From the IMG/VR virus record IMGVR_UViG_3300018080_008408, positions 1 to 37,178 of that record: DNA of 37,178 nt, one strand, 5' to 3'. Position 1 is the first letter of the stretch; every line of letters starts with the position of its first letter. This document shows positions 16,018 to 37,178 of this stretch, in pieces. Made by a program: the position numbers and the translations under genes. The stretch comes from a virus. The notes beneath the pieces were generated by a model. It was not told the DNA's origin. It saw only the letters and a program-made list of their open reading frames with translations, and made no database searches.

Positions 16018-16662
16018 ATGTATGACGTTCAATTGCATGAAACAGTTATGACGGTCTCACCTACATCTAGATACAATGCAAAATTTGATATTGTCCATGT
16101 TGAAACTATAATAAAAACAGCACAACCTATTCCGAGTGAAGATATTTTCTTTGTTCCTTCCATGGACAAGGTTCCTAGTCATATTCTAGAAATATTAGAA
16201 TTAGGTGGCTTTTGTTTTGAACCTATTCCAATGTCTGAAGTAACTCGTCAAATTTCAAATTTTGAACAAGCTGTAAAAAATGGAACGAAAGAAGAGACTT
16301 TAGCTGATGCAATGGTCGGGTTAGGTGCAAAATTTATGAAACAAGTTAAAATGACTCCAATAGGTGATAACTTCTATCGTATCAGCTATGACTTTGCTTT
16401 AATGCCTGAAGATGATGGTTCTTTTGTAATTCAAACAACCTTACCACATAAAGGTTTTAATATGCCAAGAGCAGGCCAAGTAAGATTTATTGTTGTTCTA
16501 CCAACTAATGCGAAGTGTGATAGAGATGCTACAAAAGGAGAAGTTGAAGGTTCACACCAAATTATTGATGAACCAACTCCTCCAAATGTTGCAAACGGAA
16601 GACAAGTTGTTAGCTTTTTCTATCAAAATGATCCAAAGTTCACAGTGAAATATAAGTATTAA
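16018..16662 (+). CDS. Unknown plus-strand accessory protein (214 aa)
   Basis: A soluble-looking protein beginning MYDVQLHETVMTVSPTSRYN with AAGGGGG before its ATG. No signal peptide or membrane helix is apparent. The centre is helical (SNFEQAVKNGTKEETLADAM) and the C-terminal half beta-rich (FYRISYDFALMPEDDGSFVI; VRFIVVLPTNAKCDRDATKG). It runs against the late operon, so it is likely transcribed independently, as expected for a gene expressed from the prophage. No clear terminator follows. I do not recognise the family. Confidence 0.7.
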   Translation: MYDVQLHETVMTVSPTSRYNAKFDIVHVETIIKTAQPIPSEDIFFVPSMDKVPSHILEILELGGFCFEPIPMSEVTRQISNFEQAVKNGTKEETLADAMVGLGAKFMKQVKMTPIGDNFYRISYDFALMPEDDGSFVIQTTLPHKGFNMPRAGQVRFIVVLPTNAKCDRDATKGEVEGSHQIIDEPTPPNVANGRQVVSFFYQNDPKFTVKYKY

Positions 16663-29938: not shown

Positions 29939-30175
29939 TTACGAAACTTCTTTTGGGTTTCCGTGTTCACTTACAGTTAACTTATTATCCAAAAAAATAT
30001 AATCAGGACTCGCTTTAAAAACTTTTGCGATTTTTACCGCCAATTCGTAGGTTAACCGGCGCTTACCGTTTTCAATCATCCAGTAGTATTCTTTGGATAT
30101 GCCTACTTTATCAGCAACCTGTTGATAAGTAAGCCCTTCAGTAGTACGAATATGTTTAAGTTTTTCTAGCGCCAT
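29939..30175 (-). CDS. Cro-like helix-turn-helix regulator
   Basis: A 78-residue XRE-family protein, the first gene of the early (lytic) operon. Helix-turn-helix at ~15-40 (LTYQQVADKVGISKEYYWMI, then ENGKRRLTYELA). The end (SPDYIFLDNKLTVSEHGNPK) is common in phage Cro-type proteins. It diverges from the repressor gene across the operator array and likely binds the same GTTAAC sites to shut off the lysogenic promoter. Confidence 0.85.
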   Translation of the reverse strand: MALEKLKHIRTTEGLTYQQVADKVGISKEYYWMIENGKRRLTYELAVKIAKVFKASPDYIFLDNKLTVSEHGNPKEVS

Positions 30176-30195
30176 TATCTTTCCACCACCTTTTG

Positions 30196-30314
30196 GTTAA
30201 CTCGAAGTTAACTTTATTATAATTAACCAAAAGTTAACTTTCAAGTGTTTTTTAAGAAATAATTTCTATTTAGTTAACTTATTGTTTCCTTCTTTATGTT
30301 ATCTATTTGTTAAC
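30196..30314. promoter_or_regulatory. Operator array of the lysis-lysogeny switch
   Basis: Five GTTAAC sites at 30196-30201, 30207-30212, 30233-30238, 30273-30278 and 30309-30314, four of them extended to GTTAACTT, plus TTAACC at 30223-30228. They overlap or flank both divergent promoters. The first two are 11 bases apart, one helical turn. Repressor and Cro-like protein are the expected ligands. Confidence 0.8.
30216..30244 (-). promoter_or_regulatory. Early leftward promoter, sigma-A type
   Basis: On the minus strand TTGAAA (30244-30239), 17-base spacer, TATAAT (30221-30216). Transcription would begin near 30209, within an operator; another operator fills part of the spacer. Drives the Cro-like gene and the early operon. 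Confidence 0.85.
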
Positions 30315-30315
30315 T

Positions 30316-30321
30316 TATAAT
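30316..30321 (+). promoter_or_regulatory. Probable -10 element of the repressor promoter
   Basis: TATAAT lies just after the operator at 30309-30314 and before the ribosome binding site AGAGAGG. No good -35 is seen at 16-18 bases, so activation or an extended element may be needed. The leader would be short. Confidence 0.5.
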
Positions 30322-30346
30322 TATTTTCAGAAAGAGAGGTGATGTA

Positions 30347-30775
30347 TTGGTGTTAGGTGAAAGAATTAAAAGATTGCGACAACAAAAGAAGCTTACTCAA
30401 GGTAAATTAGGAGAAAAAGTAAATGTTACAAAAGTTTCTATTTCTGGTTATGAAAATGGAAACCGAACACCTGATACAGAAACCCTCCAAAAATTAGCTG
30501 ATGTACTCGAGACAAGTACTGACTATCTTTTGGGTAGAACCGATAACCCTTCTCCGAAGGAACCTGTTACTGTAGCAGATCAAAAAATAGAGCTAACTCC
30601 AGAAGAATTAAAAATTTTAGAAGTAATTAAAAAAAGTCCTGTGCTTTTCCATGATTTAGCTTCAGACCCAGAAAAGAAAGTAAAGGAATTAATAAAACTA
30701 TACAAAATGAAGAAAATCCTTCTAGAAGACGATGACGAAGAGTATGGAAACGGTTTTGGAGACTTGGAAGATTAA
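30347..30775 (+). CDS. CI-like repressor, XRE family
   Basis: A 142-residue protein. TTG start at 30347 (or GTG at 30350) after AGAGAGGTG. N-terminal helix-turn-helix, ~5-60 (GERIKRLRQQKKLTQGKLGE, KVNVTKVSISGYENGNRTPD, LADVLETSTDYLLGRTDN). The C-terminal part is charged and helical, with an acidic tail (LLEDDDEEYGNGFGDLED). It lacks a LexA-type peptidase domain, so induction probably works by proteolysis by the ImmA-like protein encoded nearby, as in ICEBs1, or by the antirepressor. Terminator follows. Confidence 0.88.
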   Translation: MVLGERIKRLRQQKKLTQGKLGEKVNVTKVSISGYENGNRTPDTETLQKLADVLETSTDYLLGRTDNPSPKEPVTVADQKIELTPEELKILEVIKKSPVLFHDLASDPEKKVKELIKLYKMKKILLEDDDEEYGNGFGDLED

Positions 30776-30818
30776 ATAAATTAAAATAAAACAATATAAA
30801 GAAGATCGAATCCTTTAT

Positions 30819-30845
30819 AGACACGGCTAAAATCGTGTCTTTTAT
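30819..30845 (+). terminator. Intrinsic terminator after the repressor gene
   Basis: AGACACG (30819-30825) pairs with CGTGTCT (30834-30840) around an eight-base loop, then TTTATT. Confidence 0.75.
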
Positions 30846-30951
30846 TAGAACCTCATAAGGTAAATAATTCAATAACATATATTTTTTACTATTTAAGTAG
30901 TAATATTTTACAATGTATTTTTATCTATTTTTATTTTTATAGGGGGTAAAT

Positions 30952-31617
30952 ATGGAATACTTGAAATCAAAATTTGTTTGGGTAATCACAGCTTGTGGTC
31001 TATTGATACTTATTTTGGGTTACGGGGTTGGGAAAAGTACTGCAAGTGTTCCGTTAGATGAAGGTAAAGTGAAGTATGAAGAATTGCAACAAAAAATAAA
31101 AGAAAAAGAAAAAGAACTTAGTGACCTCAATGATGAAATCGAGGAGAAAACCGAAGAAAAAGAAAATATTTTAGCAGAAGTGACTGAAAACAAAAAAACA
31201 TTTGACGAAGCTATGAAAATTATTGATAACAAAGTTGAATTGTTAGAGGAAATTAAAGAACTTGAAACTCAAATATCTTCAAAAAAATCCGAAATAGAAA
31301 AGCTTAATGCTGATATTGATTCTAAAAATGCTGAATTAGCAAAAGTTACTGGACAAATTAAGGAAAAAGAAGAAGCACCAAAAGAATTGAGTGCAGGTCA
31401 GTTCATAGTCGGTCAAGACATTCCAGCAGGACGATATAAAGTAGTTCCTATTGGGCGTGGAAGTAACTTCGTAGTCTATGATTCAAGTGGTCAATTGTTT
31501 GTAAATACCATTATCAGTAACACTTCTGGCCACGGTGTTCCTGAATATGTTACTTATCTTAATGATGGGTACATTATTGATAGTTCAACTCCTGCAAAAT
31601 ATATACCTGTTGAGTAA
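30952..31617 (+). CDS. Membrane-anchored coiled-coil protein (221 aa)
   Basis: AGGGGG precedes the ATG. One N-terminal membrane helix (FVWVITACGLLILILGYGVG, residues ~8-27), then a long coiled coil (~40-145, KIKEKEKELSDLNDEIEEKT). The C-terminal beta-rich domain (~150-221) has SAGQFIVGQDIPAGRYKVVP, a motif seen in extracytoplasmic domains of Firmicutes proteins. The soluble part probably faces outside. Position beside the repressor suggests a lysogen-expressed surface function such as superinfection exclusion; this is inference. Confidence 0.75.
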   Translation: MEYLKSKFVWVITACGLLILILGYGVGKSTASVPLDEGKVKYEELQQKIKEKEKELSDLNDEIEEKTEEKENILAEVTENKKTFDEAMKIIDNKVELLEEIKELETQISSKKSEIEKLNADIDSKNAELAKVTGQIKEKEEAPKELSAGQFIVGQDIPAGRYKVVPIGRGSNFVVYDSSGQLFVNTIISNTSGHGVPEYVTYLNDGYIIDSSTPAKYIPVE

Positions 31618-31655
31618 TTCACTTAATGAAAATTAGCTAGAAGGGAAGGGAAACG

Positions 31656-32792
31656 ATGTTATCTACTGACTTACCTGAAAATATCCATCCAATTTATCTT
31701 AAAAAATTACCCAATGGTCTTTATCCAGGAGAAGTAGTACTTTTGGATTAGATAAACGGTAAAAGTATCAATAGTACCTTCCCTGGTTATTTTCAGTACA
31801 CATATGGAATAGATGCTTCAAGATCATTAAAAAGACTACTTAAAGATGGTTATTTATCTGAAGCTACCCTGAAAGAATCTCTTCCATCTTTAAAAGTAAA
31901 TCAATTAAAAGAGATACTTAAAACTAATAATTTAAAGGTTTCAGGAACAAAAAAAGAATTAATTAATCGAGTTATTGATAATTTGTCTCCTGATAAATAT
32001 AAGGAATATATAAAAAATCCAACAATAAAAATTTCAGACAAAGGAAATGAAGTATTAAATGAATTTTACTTTATAGTTCCCGCTCACAAAAATGGTTCTA
32101 AAGAAGGAATATATAATCCTGCAACTGCGATTCATTATATGAAAAATAGAAGAAATAGACCATCTAATAATGACATTTCATGGGCATTATTTGCTGAAGC
32201 ATTTGCAAAATATCAACTTGAACGAAAATACGGTTTACTGTGTATTGTAATGAGAAATATGGCTTCTCAATTATATAAAGAGAAAAAGTATAGAGAATCG
32301 TTAAATTATTATTTGCAAATTTTTATTGTTGAGCTAAGTGGATTGAATAACGGTGATTATATTAGCACCCCTGAATATATATTTATATCCCCTAATACGG
32401 GAGACAATATATTAAGAATAATGAATATTCTTGAAATCGATAAAAATCAGTTACGAGATGAATTTAGGAATTCTTGGATTAAAATAAATAAGATCCTCCC
32501 TTTTCATTATCTGGATCAAGAAACTGCATTTCAATGTTTGTTAGCTTCTTTTGATGACCAAGTTGAATTTATTTCGGAAGCAATTAACAAAGCATATAGA
32601 AATATTGATAAAAGTGTAATAGAAAAGAAATATAACTTAAGGTTTCTAGACTTTCATATTACCGATTCAACTGATAATAAAAGTTCTAAAAATAACGTAA
32701 AGGCAGAAACTTCTGTAGGATGTTTTACACAAATTATGTTTTTATTGTCTGTAGTTTCTCTTTTAGGTTTTTGGATTAATTTTATATTATAG
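31656..32792 (+). pseudogene. SAP-domain protein gene interrupted by an in-frame TAG
   Basis: ATG at 31656 with AGAAGGGAAGGG upstream begins MLSTDLPENIHPIYLKKLPN, reaches a TAG at codon 32 (31749-31751), then stays open in the same frame to 32792 (379 codons in all). Codons ~85-109 form a SAP DNA-binding motif (LKEILKTNNLKVSGTKKELI). The C-terminus has a membrane-like helix (IMFLLSVVSLLGFWINFIL). TGG to TAG (Trp, giving LLDWINGK) is a plausible cause. A restart at TTG 31983 would lose the SAP domain. Function unknown. Confidence 0.7.
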
Positions 32793-32828
32793 AATTTTAT
32801 TATTGTTACATCAATGGGGATGACATTT

Positions 32829-33413
32829 ATGTTATTAAAAGATATTTTACCTGAAACGAATAACGATTACTGGGAAAAACGGGCCAACAAGGTCCTCTCC
32901 CACTTTAATTATCAGTACCCAGATGAAATCGACATGTATGAAATATGCTGGCGGTACGGCATAAAAATCATGCCATTGGACAAGCCTTTTCTGGATGAAG
33001 ATGTCGATGATGGATTAAAGGCATTTTCTATTGCAGGACAAAAAGGACGGCGGGGAGTTATCTATTTACGTCCAGGTTTAGATGCTATTGAAAAGAAATT
33101 ACTTCTTGCCGAGGAATTCTGCCATATATATGCTCACCATATATCTCAGTTGAACATGAATCATAGTTTCATAGCCAAAACTGAGAATCAAGCGAAACGG
33201 ATGTCTGCTTATTTGTTGATGCCATCAAAGTACTTGGAAGATGTTTATGTTGCTGCCGCTGATCAGATGGTCGTTATCTCTGATATTGCGGATTATTTCT
33301 TGGTTACAGAGAAATTTGCCCAATATCGATTGGAGCTGATTTTTAACCGCAGGGTCGATGCCTTTGCGAAGGTTAAAGGTAGAGTTGGGAGTATTGAGTG
33401 GATATGTAACTAA
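32829..33413 (+). CDS. ImmA/IrrE-type metallopeptidase
   Basis: A 194-residue protein; ATG at 32829 is preferred to 32814 because GGGG lies upstream only of the former. The active-site helix reads LLLAEEFCHIYAHH, a variant in which the usual first His of H-E-x-x-H is Glu. The downstream ENQAKRMSAYLLMP matches the family. ICEBs1 ImmA cleaves its repressor after SOS signals; here the likely target is the repressor at 30347. Base composition is clearly more GC-rich than the neighbours, suggesting separate acquisition. Confidence 0.85.
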   Translation: MLLKDILPETNNDYWEKRANKVLSHFNYQYPDEIDMYEICWRYGIKIMPLDKPFLDEDVDDGLKAFSIAGQKGRRGVIYLRPGLDAIEKKLLLAEEFCHIYAHHISQLNMNHSFIAKTENQAKRMSAYLLMPSKYLEDVYVAAADQMVVISDIADYFLVTEKFAQYRLELIFNRRVDAFAKVKGRVGSIEWICN

Positions 33414-33444
33414 AAATACAGTAGTTTATAAGGAGGAATAAATA

Positions 33445-35316
33445 ATGTCATACTTTATGTCAGCTAACGCTAACATAATCGAAAATACGAATTTGAGAGA
33501 ACCACAGATTGAAGCGTATGAAAAAATTTTTGAGCATTTTGTTGAAAGAAAAAATACAGAACACGCTTTAGTAGTTCTTCCAACTGGTACTGGAAAAACT
33601 GGATTAATGGGTATTGCACCTTATGGGATTTCAGCAGGGAGAGTATTAATTATTACTCCCCAAACTGTTATTAGAGACTCAGTCCTAGGCTCTTTAGATC
33701 CCCTTTATTCAAAAAACTTTTGGTTATTTACTAGAGTATTCGAGAATTACGATGAACTTCCATCTGTTATTGAATATGAAAAGAGTATAACTGATGAAGT
33801 TTTAAATAGTGCAGATATTATTATTCTTAATGTTCATAAATTACAAGAAAGGCTAGATTCTTCTCTTTTAAGAAGAGTACCTTCAGACTTTTTTGACTTT
33901 ATTATTATCGATGAGGCACACCATTCAGAGGCTAATACTTGGAAAAGAGCTTTGTCGTACTTTAATAATGCTAAAGTTTTAAAGGTTACTGGTACACCAT
34001 TTCGAAGTGATGGTAAAAAAATTGAAGGTAAAGAAATTTATACATACAGTTTAGGGAAAGCTATGGCATATGGCTATATAAAGAGTTTAGAAAAAATCGA
34101 TTATATTCCGGGAAAAATATACCTAACTCTCGATCAAAATTCTGAAAAGTTATATACATTAAATGAAATAAGAGAAATGGGATTAAAGGATGAGGAATGG
34201 ATACAAAGATCAGTTGCTTTATCTAAAGAAAGTAATATGAGTATTGTTGAGCAATCGATTAAATTTTTGAAAGAAAAAAAGGAGAAAACAAATAATCCAC
34301 ATAAAATAATTGCTGTTGCATGTAGCATATGGCACGCAGAACAAATAAAAGAGTTATATGAGGAAAAAGGATATAAATGTTCGATCGTTCATAGCGAATT
34401 AGAAAAACACGAGAGAGAAAATGAATTTAGAAAAATAGAACAAAATGAAGTTGAAGTAGTAATTAACGTTGCAATGCTTGGTGAAGGATATGACCATAAA
34501 TTTTTATCTATTGCTGCTATATTTCGTCCTTTTAAATCTTTACTCCCATATGCACAATTTATAGGTCGTGTTTTACGTTCGATATCAGAAAGTGATGTAA
34601 ATGGAAATTTATCTGAAGAAGATAATATTGCTGCAGCTATACATCATAAAGAATTAGGATTAGATGAATTATGGAACTATTATAAAAAAGAAGTTAAAAA
34701 GAGGGACATTATTAAAAAGATAAAGACTGATTTTCCTATAGATCCAGCTGATAGATCTCCAAGAGATATTTCTTTTGGTTCTGTTAAAGAGTCAGAAGAC
34801 TATTCTACAGAGAGGGATGCTTTTATTGAAAGTGAATTATTAAAAATACGGAAACAAAAAATAGAAGAAGAAAAAAATAAGATAAATGAGCTTCAAAAAC
34901 TATTAGATATTTCTGAAGAAAAAGCTAGAAGTTTATATCAACAAAGTTTAAAAGCTCATGATAAAGAACGATTTTTGCGACCAGACCTATATCTTAAAAG
35001 AAAGAAAAAGGAATTAGATAAACTAATAAGAGAGGATTTAATCCCTCAATTGTTGGTAGACTTTAATTTAGACCTTGATGGTAAAGATTTGATAATAAAC
35101 AAATTTATACTCCCTAAAAAATATTTATTTTTATATAAACTTTCAAAGAATAATGGTGCTTTACTAGGACATTACTTTAATATATCATTAAAACATCATA
35201 TTGGTGATAGTAGAAGTGACTGGAAGTTAGATGATTATGATCGTGCAATATCTCATGTTTATGAAATCGAATACCATCTCCGTGCGGTTATGAATAAATT
35301 TTATAGAGGTGAATAA
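33445..35316 (+). CDS. DEAH-box superfamily 2 helicase, candidate defence protein
   Basis: A 623-residue ATPase. Motif I PTGTGKT at 46-52, motif II DEAH at 156-159, motif III TGTPFR at 182-187, and motif VI QFIGRVLR in the second RecA lobe (~370s), as in type III restriction and Ssl2-like helicases. The ~220 C-terminal residues are a coiled coil (ELLKIRKQKIEEEKNKINEL) and an unassigned domain. TAAGGAGG precedes the ATG. More AT-rich than the phage core and placed next to integrase, where phages carry cargo genes; the coupled small gene suggests a two-component system. Confidence 0.85.
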   Translation: MSYFMSANANIIENTNLREPQIEAYEKIFEHFVERKNTEHALVVLPTGTGKTGLMGIAPYGISAGRVLIITPQTVIRDSVLGSLDPLYSKNFWLFTRVFENYDELPSVIEYEKSITDEVLNSADIIILNVHKLQERLDSSLLRRVPSDFFDFIIIDEAHHSEANTWKRALSYFNNAKVLKVTGTPFRSDGKKIEGKEIYTYSLGKAMAYGYIKSLEKIDYIPGKIYLTLDQNSEKLYTLNEIREMGLKDEEWIQRSVALSKESNMSIVEQSIKFLKEKKEKTNNPHKIIAVACSIWHAEQIKELYEEKGYKCSIVHSELEKHERENEFRKIEQNEVEVVINVAMLGEGYDHKFLSIAAIFRPFKSLLPYAQFIGRVLRSISESDVNGNLSEEDNIAAAIHHKELGLDELWNYYKKEVKKRDIIKKIKTDFPIDPADRSPRDISFGSVKESEDYSTERDAFIESELLKIRKQKIEEEKNKINELQKLLDISEEKARSLYQQSLKAHDKERFLRPDLYLKRKKKELDKLIREDLIPQLLVDFNLDLDGKDLIINKFILPKKYLFLYKLSKNNGALLGHYFNISLKHHIGDSRSDWKLDDYDRAISHVYEIEYHLRAVMNKFYRGE

Positions 35317-35317
35317 T

Positions 35318-35644
35318 ATGTATGAAAAATTAGAACGTCTTTATGATGAAATTTACGGTCCAAAATTAACTCCTTATGAATTATTAGACAACGTTAAATT
35401 ACCACATTATATCTCTGTTGACTTTAAGAAAGAAAATAATTTTATACAGGGTATAACTAAATGTTATATAGAAACTGGAGAACTTGCTGTATTTATTTAT
35501 ACTTTTAATCAAGATAATAAGCTAATAAGTCTAAAATCAATAATTAATAATATTGAAGAGGAAATATATAATAGAGAATTAGCAATCCAACAACTGTATT
35601 CAAAAACCATTAAAGATATTAAACCTCAAACAAATGCTAGTTAG
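35318..35644 (+). CDS. Small partner protein of the helicase, unknown (108 aa)
   Basis: ATG at 35318, one base after the helicase stop; AGAGGTG is in the end of the helicase gene, so translation is coupled. A GTG at 35309 would add three residues. Sequence MYEKLERLYDEIYGPKLTPY, with LPHYISVDFKKENNFIQGIT in the middle and a helical end (NIEEEIYNRELAIQQLYSKT). No known domain recognised. Same AT-rich composition as the helicase. Followed by a bidirectional terminator. Confidence 0.75.
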   Translation: MYEKLERLYDEIYGPKLTPYELLDNVKLPHYISVDFKKENNFIQGITKCYIETGELAVFIYTFNQDNKLISLKSIINNIEEEIYNRELAIQQLYSKTIKDIKPQTNAS

Positions 35645-35707
35645 AGCTTATTAATACAACTTCGATAAAATTTCAATATTTTACACAAAATCAAAAACAA
35701 AATGTTT

Positions 35708-35731
35708 AAAAAACCCATTTTTGGGTTTTTT
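35708..35731. terminator. Bidirectional intrinsic terminator
   Basis: AAAAAACCCA, loop TTTT, TGGGTTTTTT: a perfect 10-pair stem with U tracts on both strands. Ends the helicase module and isolates integrase. Confidence 0.85.
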
Positions 35732-35740
35732 AAATACCAC

Positions 35741-35766
35741 AAAAACGAACATATATTCTCGTTTTT
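35741..35766. promoter_or_regulatory. LexA-like box and dyad ahead of integrase
   Basis: AAAAACGA and TCGTTTTT form an inverted repeat around ACATATATTC. Overlapping it, GAACATATATTC (35747-35758) matches the GAAC-N4-GTTC LexA core at all but one position, and TATATT could serve as -10. It stands just before the integrase ribosome binding site. Confidence 0.5.
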
Positions 35767-35780
35767 TAGGAGGTAGTTGA

Positions 35781-37178
35781 ATGACAGTAGCTATCTATAT
35801 CCGAGTTTCAACCGAAGAACAAGCAAAAGAAGGATATTCGATCTCTGCTCAACGAGAAAAACTAAAAGCATACTGCCAAGTCCAGGACTGGAGTGACTAC
35901 AAATTTTATGTTGATGAAGGTATTTCAGCAAAAGACACTAACCGTCCACAACTGCAACAAATGATTCAACACATTAAAGAAGGTCTAATACATACAGTTC
36001 TTGTATATCGTTTAGATCGCCTTACTCGTTCGGTGGTTGATTTGTACAAGCTTTTAGAGTTATTTGAGAAACATAATTGTACGTTTAAGTCAGCTACAGA
36101 GGTTTATGACACTTCAACAGCAATAGGGAGATTATTTATTACTCTCGTTGCTGCTATGGCACAGTGGGAACGTGAAAACCTGGGAGAACGTGTTCGAATG
36201 GGGCAAATTGAAAAAGCTAGACAAGGACAATACAGTGCTAAAGCTCCATTTGGGTTTGATAAAGGACCGAATGACCGGTTAGTTATAAATGAGGATGAAA
36301 AAACTGTTTTGCTTGATATGATTGAAAAGGTCAAAGAGGGATATTCAATAAGGAGATTGGCTCACTACATGGATAACAGTGGAATACCACCTATTAGAGG
36401 TTATAAGTGGCATATCGCGAGTATATTAGATATTCTCAAAAATCCAGCTCTGTATGGTGCTGTTAAATGGAGAGATGAAATTATTGAAGGGGCTCATGAA
36501 GGGATTATAACAAAAGAAGAGTATCAGCATCTTCTAAAGGTACTAGAGAGTAGACAAAACTTCAAAAAACGTGAAACCTATAGCATTTTTTTATTCCAAA
36601 TGAAAATTATATGTCCTCAATGTGGGAATCGTTTATCCAGTGAACGTTCAAAGTATTATCGAAAACGCGATAATAAGATTGTTGAAAGTAATCACTATCG
36701 TTGCCAAGCATGTGTATTAAATAAAAGGAAAGCGATTGCAGTCAGCGAAAAGAAAATAGAACGAGCTCTATTAAAGTACTTTGATTCAATAAAGTTTGAC
36801 CATATCCCTGAAATTGAAGATAATTCGAAACAAGAAGTTGACCAACTAACAGCACAGCTCAAAAAAATAGAAAGACAGCGTGAGAAATATCAAAAGGCGT
36901 GGTCAAATGATTTAATAACAGATGAAGAGTTTTCACAACGAATGAGGGAAACTAAACAAATGTATGAAGAAATCAAAACAAAACTCGATGCCGTTCAACC
37001 AACACAACAACAAGAATTTGACATCGAGAAAATGAAAGATATTATTAATAATTTAAATGTAAACTGGTCTTATTTATCTCCGCTAGAAAAGAAGCAATTT
37101 GTTAATACTTTTATTGAGAGTATACAGTTTGAAAAGAACGAAGGAAACGTTAAGATATTGGATGTTAACTTTTATTGA
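35781..37178 (+). CDS. Large serine recombinase (integrase)
   Basis: A complete 465-residue enzyme after AGGAGG; its TGA is the last codon of the window. Resolvase-type catalytic domain, ~1-150, with nucleophile Ser10 in IYIRVSTEEQAKEGYSISAQ and the Arg-rich VYRLDRLTRSVVDLYK. The recombinase domain follows (~160-260), then a zinc ribbon (CPQCGNRLSS, HYRCQACV) and a coiled coil (~335-400) that controls directionality. It would integrate the phage by attP x attB recombination; excision would need a directionality factor not identified here. attP should lie adjacent, past the right edge or in the 35645-35780 gap. Confidence 0.95.
   Translation: MTVAIYIRVSTEEQAKEGYSISAQREKLKAYCQVQDWSDYKFYVDEGISAKDTNRPQLQQMIQHIKEGLIHTVLVYRLDRLTRSVVDLYKLLELFEKHNCTFKSATEVYDTSTAIGRLFITLVAAMAQWERENLGERVRMGQIEKARQGQYSAKAPFGFDKGPNDRLVINEDEKTVLLDMIEKVKEGYSIRRLAHYMDNSGIPPIRGYKWHIASILDILKNPALYGAVKWRDEIIEGAHEGIITKEEYQHLLKVLESRQNFKKRETYSIFLFQMKIICPQCGNRLSSERSKYYRKRDNKIVESNHYRCQACVLNKRKAIAVSEKKIERALLKYFDSIKFDHIPEIEDNSKQEVDQLTAQLKKIERQREKYQKAWSNDLITDEEFSQRMRETKQMYEEIKTKLDAVQPTQQQEFDIEKMKDIINNLNVNWSYLSPLEKKQFVNTFIESIQFEKNEGNVKILDVNFY

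Follow-up and report, generated by a model that had tools for sequence, protein, structure and literature searches.

The helicase gene and the small gene that follows it in an IMG/VR virus record of 37,178 bases, the whole of which was analysed here and is referred to as the window, are inherited as one obligate unit. The constant pairing of the two genes, their anti-virus cargo positions and the self-destruct-like tag on the small protein, which we call the partner, indicate that they probably constitute an undescribed and tightly controlled antiviral system. The minus strand of the record carries terminase, portal, capsid and tape-measure genes and is followed by a lysogeny region with an HTH regulator (30347-30775, plus strand; Pfam HTH_3, 5.6e-17). 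After this region, the plus strand encodes, in this order, an ImmA-type peptidase, the helicase, the small gene and a large serine recombinase. The peptidase (32814-33413, plus strand) is of the ImmA/IrrE (M78) type (Pfam PF06114, 1e-12; phrog_87, metallo-protease), and the recombinase (35781-37178, plus strand) is the integrase (Pfam PF00239, 8.7e-43; PF07508, 5.7e-15). The helicase gene (33445-35316, plus strand) starts with an ATG, is preceded by the ribosome binding site aaggagg (33430-33436, plus strand) and codes for 623 amino acids. Its TAA stop codon occupies positions 35314-35316, and the ATG of the gene for the 108-amino acid partner (35318-35644, plus strand) lies one base past this stop; an alternative start taken from the ORF listing, the GTG at 35309, would extend the partner by three codons. 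A terminator-like palindrome is located 3' of the pair (35705-35734), and the GC content of the pair is 28.8% versus 35.3% for the window, which is within the lowest 1.4% of 2.2-kb windows. The initial annotation, made from the sequence, had described a 108-codon gene one base after the helicase stop, an AT-rich pair with a terminator behind it and a location between immunity genes and the integrase, and all of this was found again here. An Rfam search of positions 30000-37178 gave no match. An ORF of 269 amino acids (31983-32792; GC content 27%), located between the genes for the regulator and the peptidase, has a hydrophobic stretch towards its C-terminus; no significant family match was obtained for it in four libraries, and it is possibly a second cargo gene. 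A further plus-strand ORF, coding for 214 amino acids and without a Pfam match, is found within the minus-strand gene block (16018-16662).

When bacterial genomes and viral contigs were scanned, 87 loci had a helicase scoring above 480 bits, which correspond to 62 distinct loci at 90% identity, including L024, whose helicase is split. A partner homologue is encoded directly downstream and on the same strand in 61 of these 62 loci (helicases less than 90% identical), and the sole exception, L098, is a contig that ends 158 bases past the helicase. As 61 of 62 distinct relatives retain the partner, the adjacency of the two genes is not a matter of chance. Helicases under the clean score gap (458 bits or less) are followed by other small genes or by none. 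Among 399 Bacillota genomes, the helicase is present in seven and the partner is found adjacent to it in those same seven, neither gene being found alone; weaker partner matches in these genomes arose by chance within frames that are long or broken. In the first viral scan, the partner used as a single-sequence query gave no match. The distances between helicases and those between partners, compared over 58 loci, are correlated (Mantel r 0.81; the highest of 5000 permutations reached 0.15). Matched divergence and pairing amount to co-inheritance, and a physical complex of helicase and partner is not proven by that alone. The proposal in the initial annotation that the two proteins act together is strongly supported by the 61 loci, the seven Bacillota genomes and the matched divergence, and the co-occurrence check suggested with it revealed that homologues of the helicase do not lack the partner. 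At L024, L027 and L103, the helicase is broken and the partner is intact; we do not regard this as a toxin-antitoxin signature, since the helicase gene has about six times the length of the partner gene and the pattern is therefore uninformative.

The helicase belongs to the DEAH-type SF2 proteins, as motifs I, II, III, V and VI are present and ResIII (2.2e-25) and Helicase_C (2e-11) score above the Pfam cut-off. The complete motif set noted in the initial annotation could be confirmed; it consists of the Walker A motif PTGTGKT (motif I, residues 46-52; 33580-33600, plus strand), the Walker B motif DEAH (motif II, residues 156-159; 33910-33921, plus strand), TGTPFR (residues 182-187), EGYDH (residues 347-351) and QFIGRVLR (motif VI, residues 371-378; 34555-34578, plus strand). 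The ATPase motifs are strictly conserved across the family: P46, T47, G48, G50 and K51 of motif I, D156, E157 and H159 of motif II, and Q371, G374, R375, L377 and R378 of motif VI are invariant in 51 relatives. With Pfam, only ResIII, Helicase_C and related helicase-core models were matched and nothing beyond about residue 400, in keeping with the unassigned C-terminus noted before. In the AlphaFold2 model (pLDDT 86), a two-domain motor extends to about residue 400 and is followed by an all-helical bundle (residues 400-623; 34642-35313, plus strand), of which residues 433-469 are predicted to be disordered. A nuclease domain was sought in the helicase with Pfam and in the model and was not found. 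The closest PDB relatives by sequence are RadD (best match, 6jde, 1.3e-19), XPB and an HsdR fragment, and RadD is also the top Foldseek match of the model (E 2.1e-15).

The partner belongs to phrog_12848, a family without an assigned function (6.5e-13; residues 3-96 aligned with positions 4-97 of the 100-position profile), which is matched by the Leptospira partner at 4e-46. Its AlphaFold2 model (pLDDT 90.6) consists of two helices, a five-stranded antiparallel sheet, a further helix and a flexible tail. Fold searches brought no significant match, with nothing below E 0.1 in the PDB or below E 0.001 among viral predicted structures. Pur-alpha, Ugi-2 and immunity repressors of mycobacteriophages came up only as weak leads with low TM scores; in the Foldseek search with the partner model m6bd12bcc2adc, the repressors of phages Giles and Ein37 appeared at E 0.04-0.05, below significance. 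Similarity to Csm6-HEPN (Pfam 0.027, PADLOC 7e-4) was ruled out because the alignment covers about 60 residues and falls under the cut-off, and because an RxxxxH motif is not conserved across 55 partners. Neither in the helicase nor in the partner was a recognised DNA-specificity or nuclease domain found by Pfam or in the AlphaFold2 models. No family in Pfam, NCBIfam or PADLOC describes the pair, and since the matches are restricted to the helicase core, the earlier statement that it fits no known defence family holds for these three libraries.

The partner of the window ends in TNAS (35630-35641, plus strand), a flexible tail predicted with low confidence (pLDDT 58 in the last block). When 61 distinct partners were aligned from their C-terminal ends, the information content was 2.2 bits at position -2 and 1.6 bits at position -1, compared with 0.2-0.8 bits at the preceding positions. 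The pattern [AVSIT][AVSI] at these last two positions is found in 46 of 61 partners versus 43 of 407 control ORFs (10.6%; p 6e-26), the controls being ORFs below 200 amino acids from the same loci, and in four of 62 helicases. It persists after reduction to partners below 35% identity (16 of 24) and is present in both partner subgroups despite their unequal tail lengths. The codons used at -2 and -1 are diverse, and selection therefore acts on the protein. Based on these alignments, small ssrA-type residues are conserved across the family at the extreme C-terminus of the partner, which makes this end a putative degron. Common ends are RLVA, SLVA, TLAA, KAAV and GKAI, and the partners of L008 (LPF), L198 (KPN), L218 (VSK) and L019 (GNM) are off-pattern. 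TNAS itself is within this tail class, but it is no textbook degron. Besides ssrA, the C-terminus of MuA, KKAI, is another ClpX signal. In ssrA, the terminal Ala-Ala-COO- is the main determinant for ClpXP (PMC7652416), and in Bacillus thuringiensis, LVA and AAV have been used to tag proteins for degradation (PMC5732988). The last residues of the antitoxin CmdA are LAA; during phage infection this antitoxin is lost in a ClpP-dependent manner, which frees the toxin and triggers defence (PMC11618068).

The pair is present in Bacillota, Gammaproteobacteria and Leptospira, where it is carried by prophages, plasmids and P4 satellites; the plasmids with the two genes side by side come from Lysinibacillus, Priestia, Leptospira, Pasteurella, Peribacillus and Pseudomonas. 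On the Leptospira mayottensis plasmid, a gene for a caspase-family protease lies directly 5' of the pair (L008:3155-5881), and this protease may be a third component there. Of 39 proviruses or virus records longer than 20 kb, 23 have the pair at most 4 kb from an end, where 8.3 would be expected (KS p 7e-6), a statistic that is based on IMG/VR provirus boundaries, which are themselves predictions. Its immediate neighbours include many S24 and HTH repressors, ImmA peptidases and integrases. Neighbouring proteins also match HEC-05, type III RM, PD-Lambda-1, AbiEii, AbiD and Old (E 1e-238 to 1e-50), which are raw occurrences. In the P4-like satellites L183 and L181, the gene order is int-helicase-partner-psu. 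Matches to the L183 pair are found in 40 of 5426 complete E. coli genomes and reach at least 99% in 39 of these, and the pair is encoded between int and psu in E. coli O145 RM9872 (WP_000220867.1 and WP_000611230.1) and in E. coli L1_E925 (WP_047648268.1 and WP_047648267.1). As described by Rousset et al., the int-psu locus of P4 satellites is a reservoir of antiphage systems, which was established by cloning and phage challenge, with seven of 19 gene sets tested being active (PMC9122126). The E. coli P4 hotspot, the provirus edges and the defence-gene neighbours support the candidate assignment to defence or exclusion cargo that had been made from the window. No paper on the pair or mentioning its E. 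coli accessions was found in a search of largely open-access literature, and the supplementary tables of PMC9122126 may list the pair, even as a tested set.

Related helicases with other small genes were also encountered. The sister helicases of L012, L013, L014 and L015 (349-458 bits) are not accompanied by the partner of the family, and in several of these loci a small zinc-ribbon-like or cysteine-containing gene comes right after the helicase stop or overlaps it. L014 is a mobilizable Salmonella plasmid of 5.9 kb with relatives on small Klebsiella plasmids, and loci of this type may represent a parallel module of a helicase and a small partner. A third subgroup (L030, L114, L115 and L219) has helicases of about 660 amino acids next to small proteins of 93-114 amino acids, which do not match the partner profile, yet have a late FSR/YSR-like motif in common with the partner; they terminate in NIA, CVS, HVS and KTA, so that the tail pattern of the family extends to these distant sister partners. 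At L024 (4087-6612; Firmicutes UBA5435), the helicase extends over several frames and the upstream pieces contain a PLD-nuclease-like stretch with GSSN, which suggests a candidate nuclease-fused variant of the helicase.

Antiviral systems composed of a helicase and a partner are already known, such as Hachiman and helicase + DUF2290, and by the tests made the pair of the window is neither. Hachiman (HamAB) is likewise a two-gene antiphage system built on a helicase, but no HamA or HamB model was among the PADLOC matches of either protein and no HamA nuclease domain was present. Helicase + DUF2290 (Rousset et al., 2022) is a helicase and partner pair from the same P4-satellite hotspot and also from Bacillus prophage hotspots. 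Here, PF10053 (DUF2290) gave no match at E<=1 in the window partner or in eight related or sister-module small proteins, and our helicase profile gave none at E<=10 in four DUF2290 loci; as judged from this search and these sampled loci, both components are unrelated. PsyrTA combines a helicase-type effector, a proposed toxin, with a partner gene; in PADLOC, PsyrT was matched with 28 bits, confined to the helicase core, and PsyrA not at all. AbpAB, another prophage helicase pair, was set aside, as AbpA has 538 amino acids and the layout is unlike the one described here. The motors of type I and IV restriction systems (EcoAI-type HsdR, SauUSI-like mREase_IV) share the ResIII-type helicase core, whereas the pair has no PD-(D/E)XK or PLD nuclease, no modified-base reader and no adjacent methylase or specificity genes. 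For a type I, III or IV restriction enzyme, a nuclease was found neither by Pfam nor in the model, and the neighbouring genes code for a peptidase and an integrase. Finally, CmdTAC and other TAC systems resemble the working proposed below, in that an antitoxin with a C-terminal ClpXP signal is lost and an effector is freed (PMC11618068). In contrast to these systems, the pair includes no ADP-ribosyltransferase and no SecB-like chaperone, and the effector would be the helicase.

Based on the genomic context, it is very likely that the pair is an antiviral module, in the sense of inter-element conflict, regardless of whether the partner is a labile inhibitor or an activator or subunit. Whether it is a two-gene antiviral cargo module in which a nuclease-free RadD/XPB/HsdR-like helicase is held by a labile, antitoxin-like partner with a putative degron seems to us an evenly balanced question. 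According to this model, the partner would bind the helicase and keep it in check, and would be intrinsically short-lived, like CmdA in CmdTAC, because its tail would be read by ClpXP. An invading phage might upset the supply or protection of the partner, leading to the release of the helicase. In the next step, the free helicase, an ATP-driven motor, would act on nucleic acid and block replication or transcription of the phage and perhaps also of the cell. Several points count against this model: to our knowledge, helicases are rare as toxins, and type II toxin-antitoxin systems do not usually have the effector gene in front of the partner gene. The atypical TNAS end, the off-pattern members and the activity of only seven of the 19 gene sets from the P4 locus likewise weigh against it. 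We only tentatively speculate that the pair stands for a widespread undescribed antiviral class, in which a nuclease-free SF2 helicase as the effector is gated by a partner of unmatched fold with its own ClpXP tag, so that loss of a short-lived inhibitor triggers immunity.

The pairing, position and neighbour evidence applies equally to a defence module whose partner acts as an activator or specificity factor or forms a structural subunit, and this alternative has to be taken seriously, although we think it somewhat improbable. In such a module, a complex of both proteins would recognise or process invading DNA, and the tail would be a docking peptide or a handle for a ClpXP-dependent off-switch. 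The similarity of the motor to HsdR and RadD would fit, and there are precedents: EcoKI restriction complexes are proteolysed by ClpXP in type I restriction alleviation (PMC11109961), and both genes of PARIS, from the same P4 hotspot, are required, with neither deletion being toxic (PMC9122126). However, neither protein has a nuclease or a recognised DNA-specificity domain, and a purely structural subunit would not need a conserved degron-like end.

The labile-inhibitor model shares its apparently labile partner with a selfish addiction (toxin-antitoxin) module that would stabilise mobile elements and have no antiviral role. The presence of the pair on plasmids, satellites and prophages would suit such a module, but its clustering in the P4 antiphage hotspot and near defence genes argues against it, and addiction and defence can coexist; we regard a purely selfish role as unlikely. 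Even less probable, and hardly to be expected from the data, is a RadD-like accessory of the element for DNA repair, replication or recombination, a possibility that had been raised together with the initial annotation. RadD and XPB are the nearest solved structures and the helicase matches phrog_16, 'DNA helicase', at 1.1e-51. RadD (YejH) has the same SF2 core, but this repair ATPase works on its own and contains a zinc ribbon; in the window helicase, the C-terminal part is a helical bundle, and the protein comes with an obligate partner. In addition, none of the NCBIfam equivalog cut-offs for RadD, EcoAI, UvrB and XPB was reached by the helicase, which scored 68.4 bits against the RadD model with its cut-off of 720; no repair or replication family among these models scored above its cut-off. 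The pair is also sited in lysogeny or cargo regions and not in replication modules, its distribution is sporadic, as seen for the seven of 399 Bacillota genomes, and in 50,697 records of isolated phages, neither a full-length helicase related to this one nor a relative of any of the three partners tested was found.

Taken together, what has been annotated anonymously as a 'DEAD/DEAH box helicase' and a 'hypothetical protein' is now a defined two-gene unit, and the tie to the helicase is new information on phrog_12848. With WP_000220867.1 and WP_000611230.1, a copy is located in an established antiphage hotspot of E. coli, which makes the unit directly testable. If the partner is indeed a labile inhibitor, a nuclease-free DNA motor would serve as an immune effector, and ClpXP-gated immunity would reach past the TAC systems.
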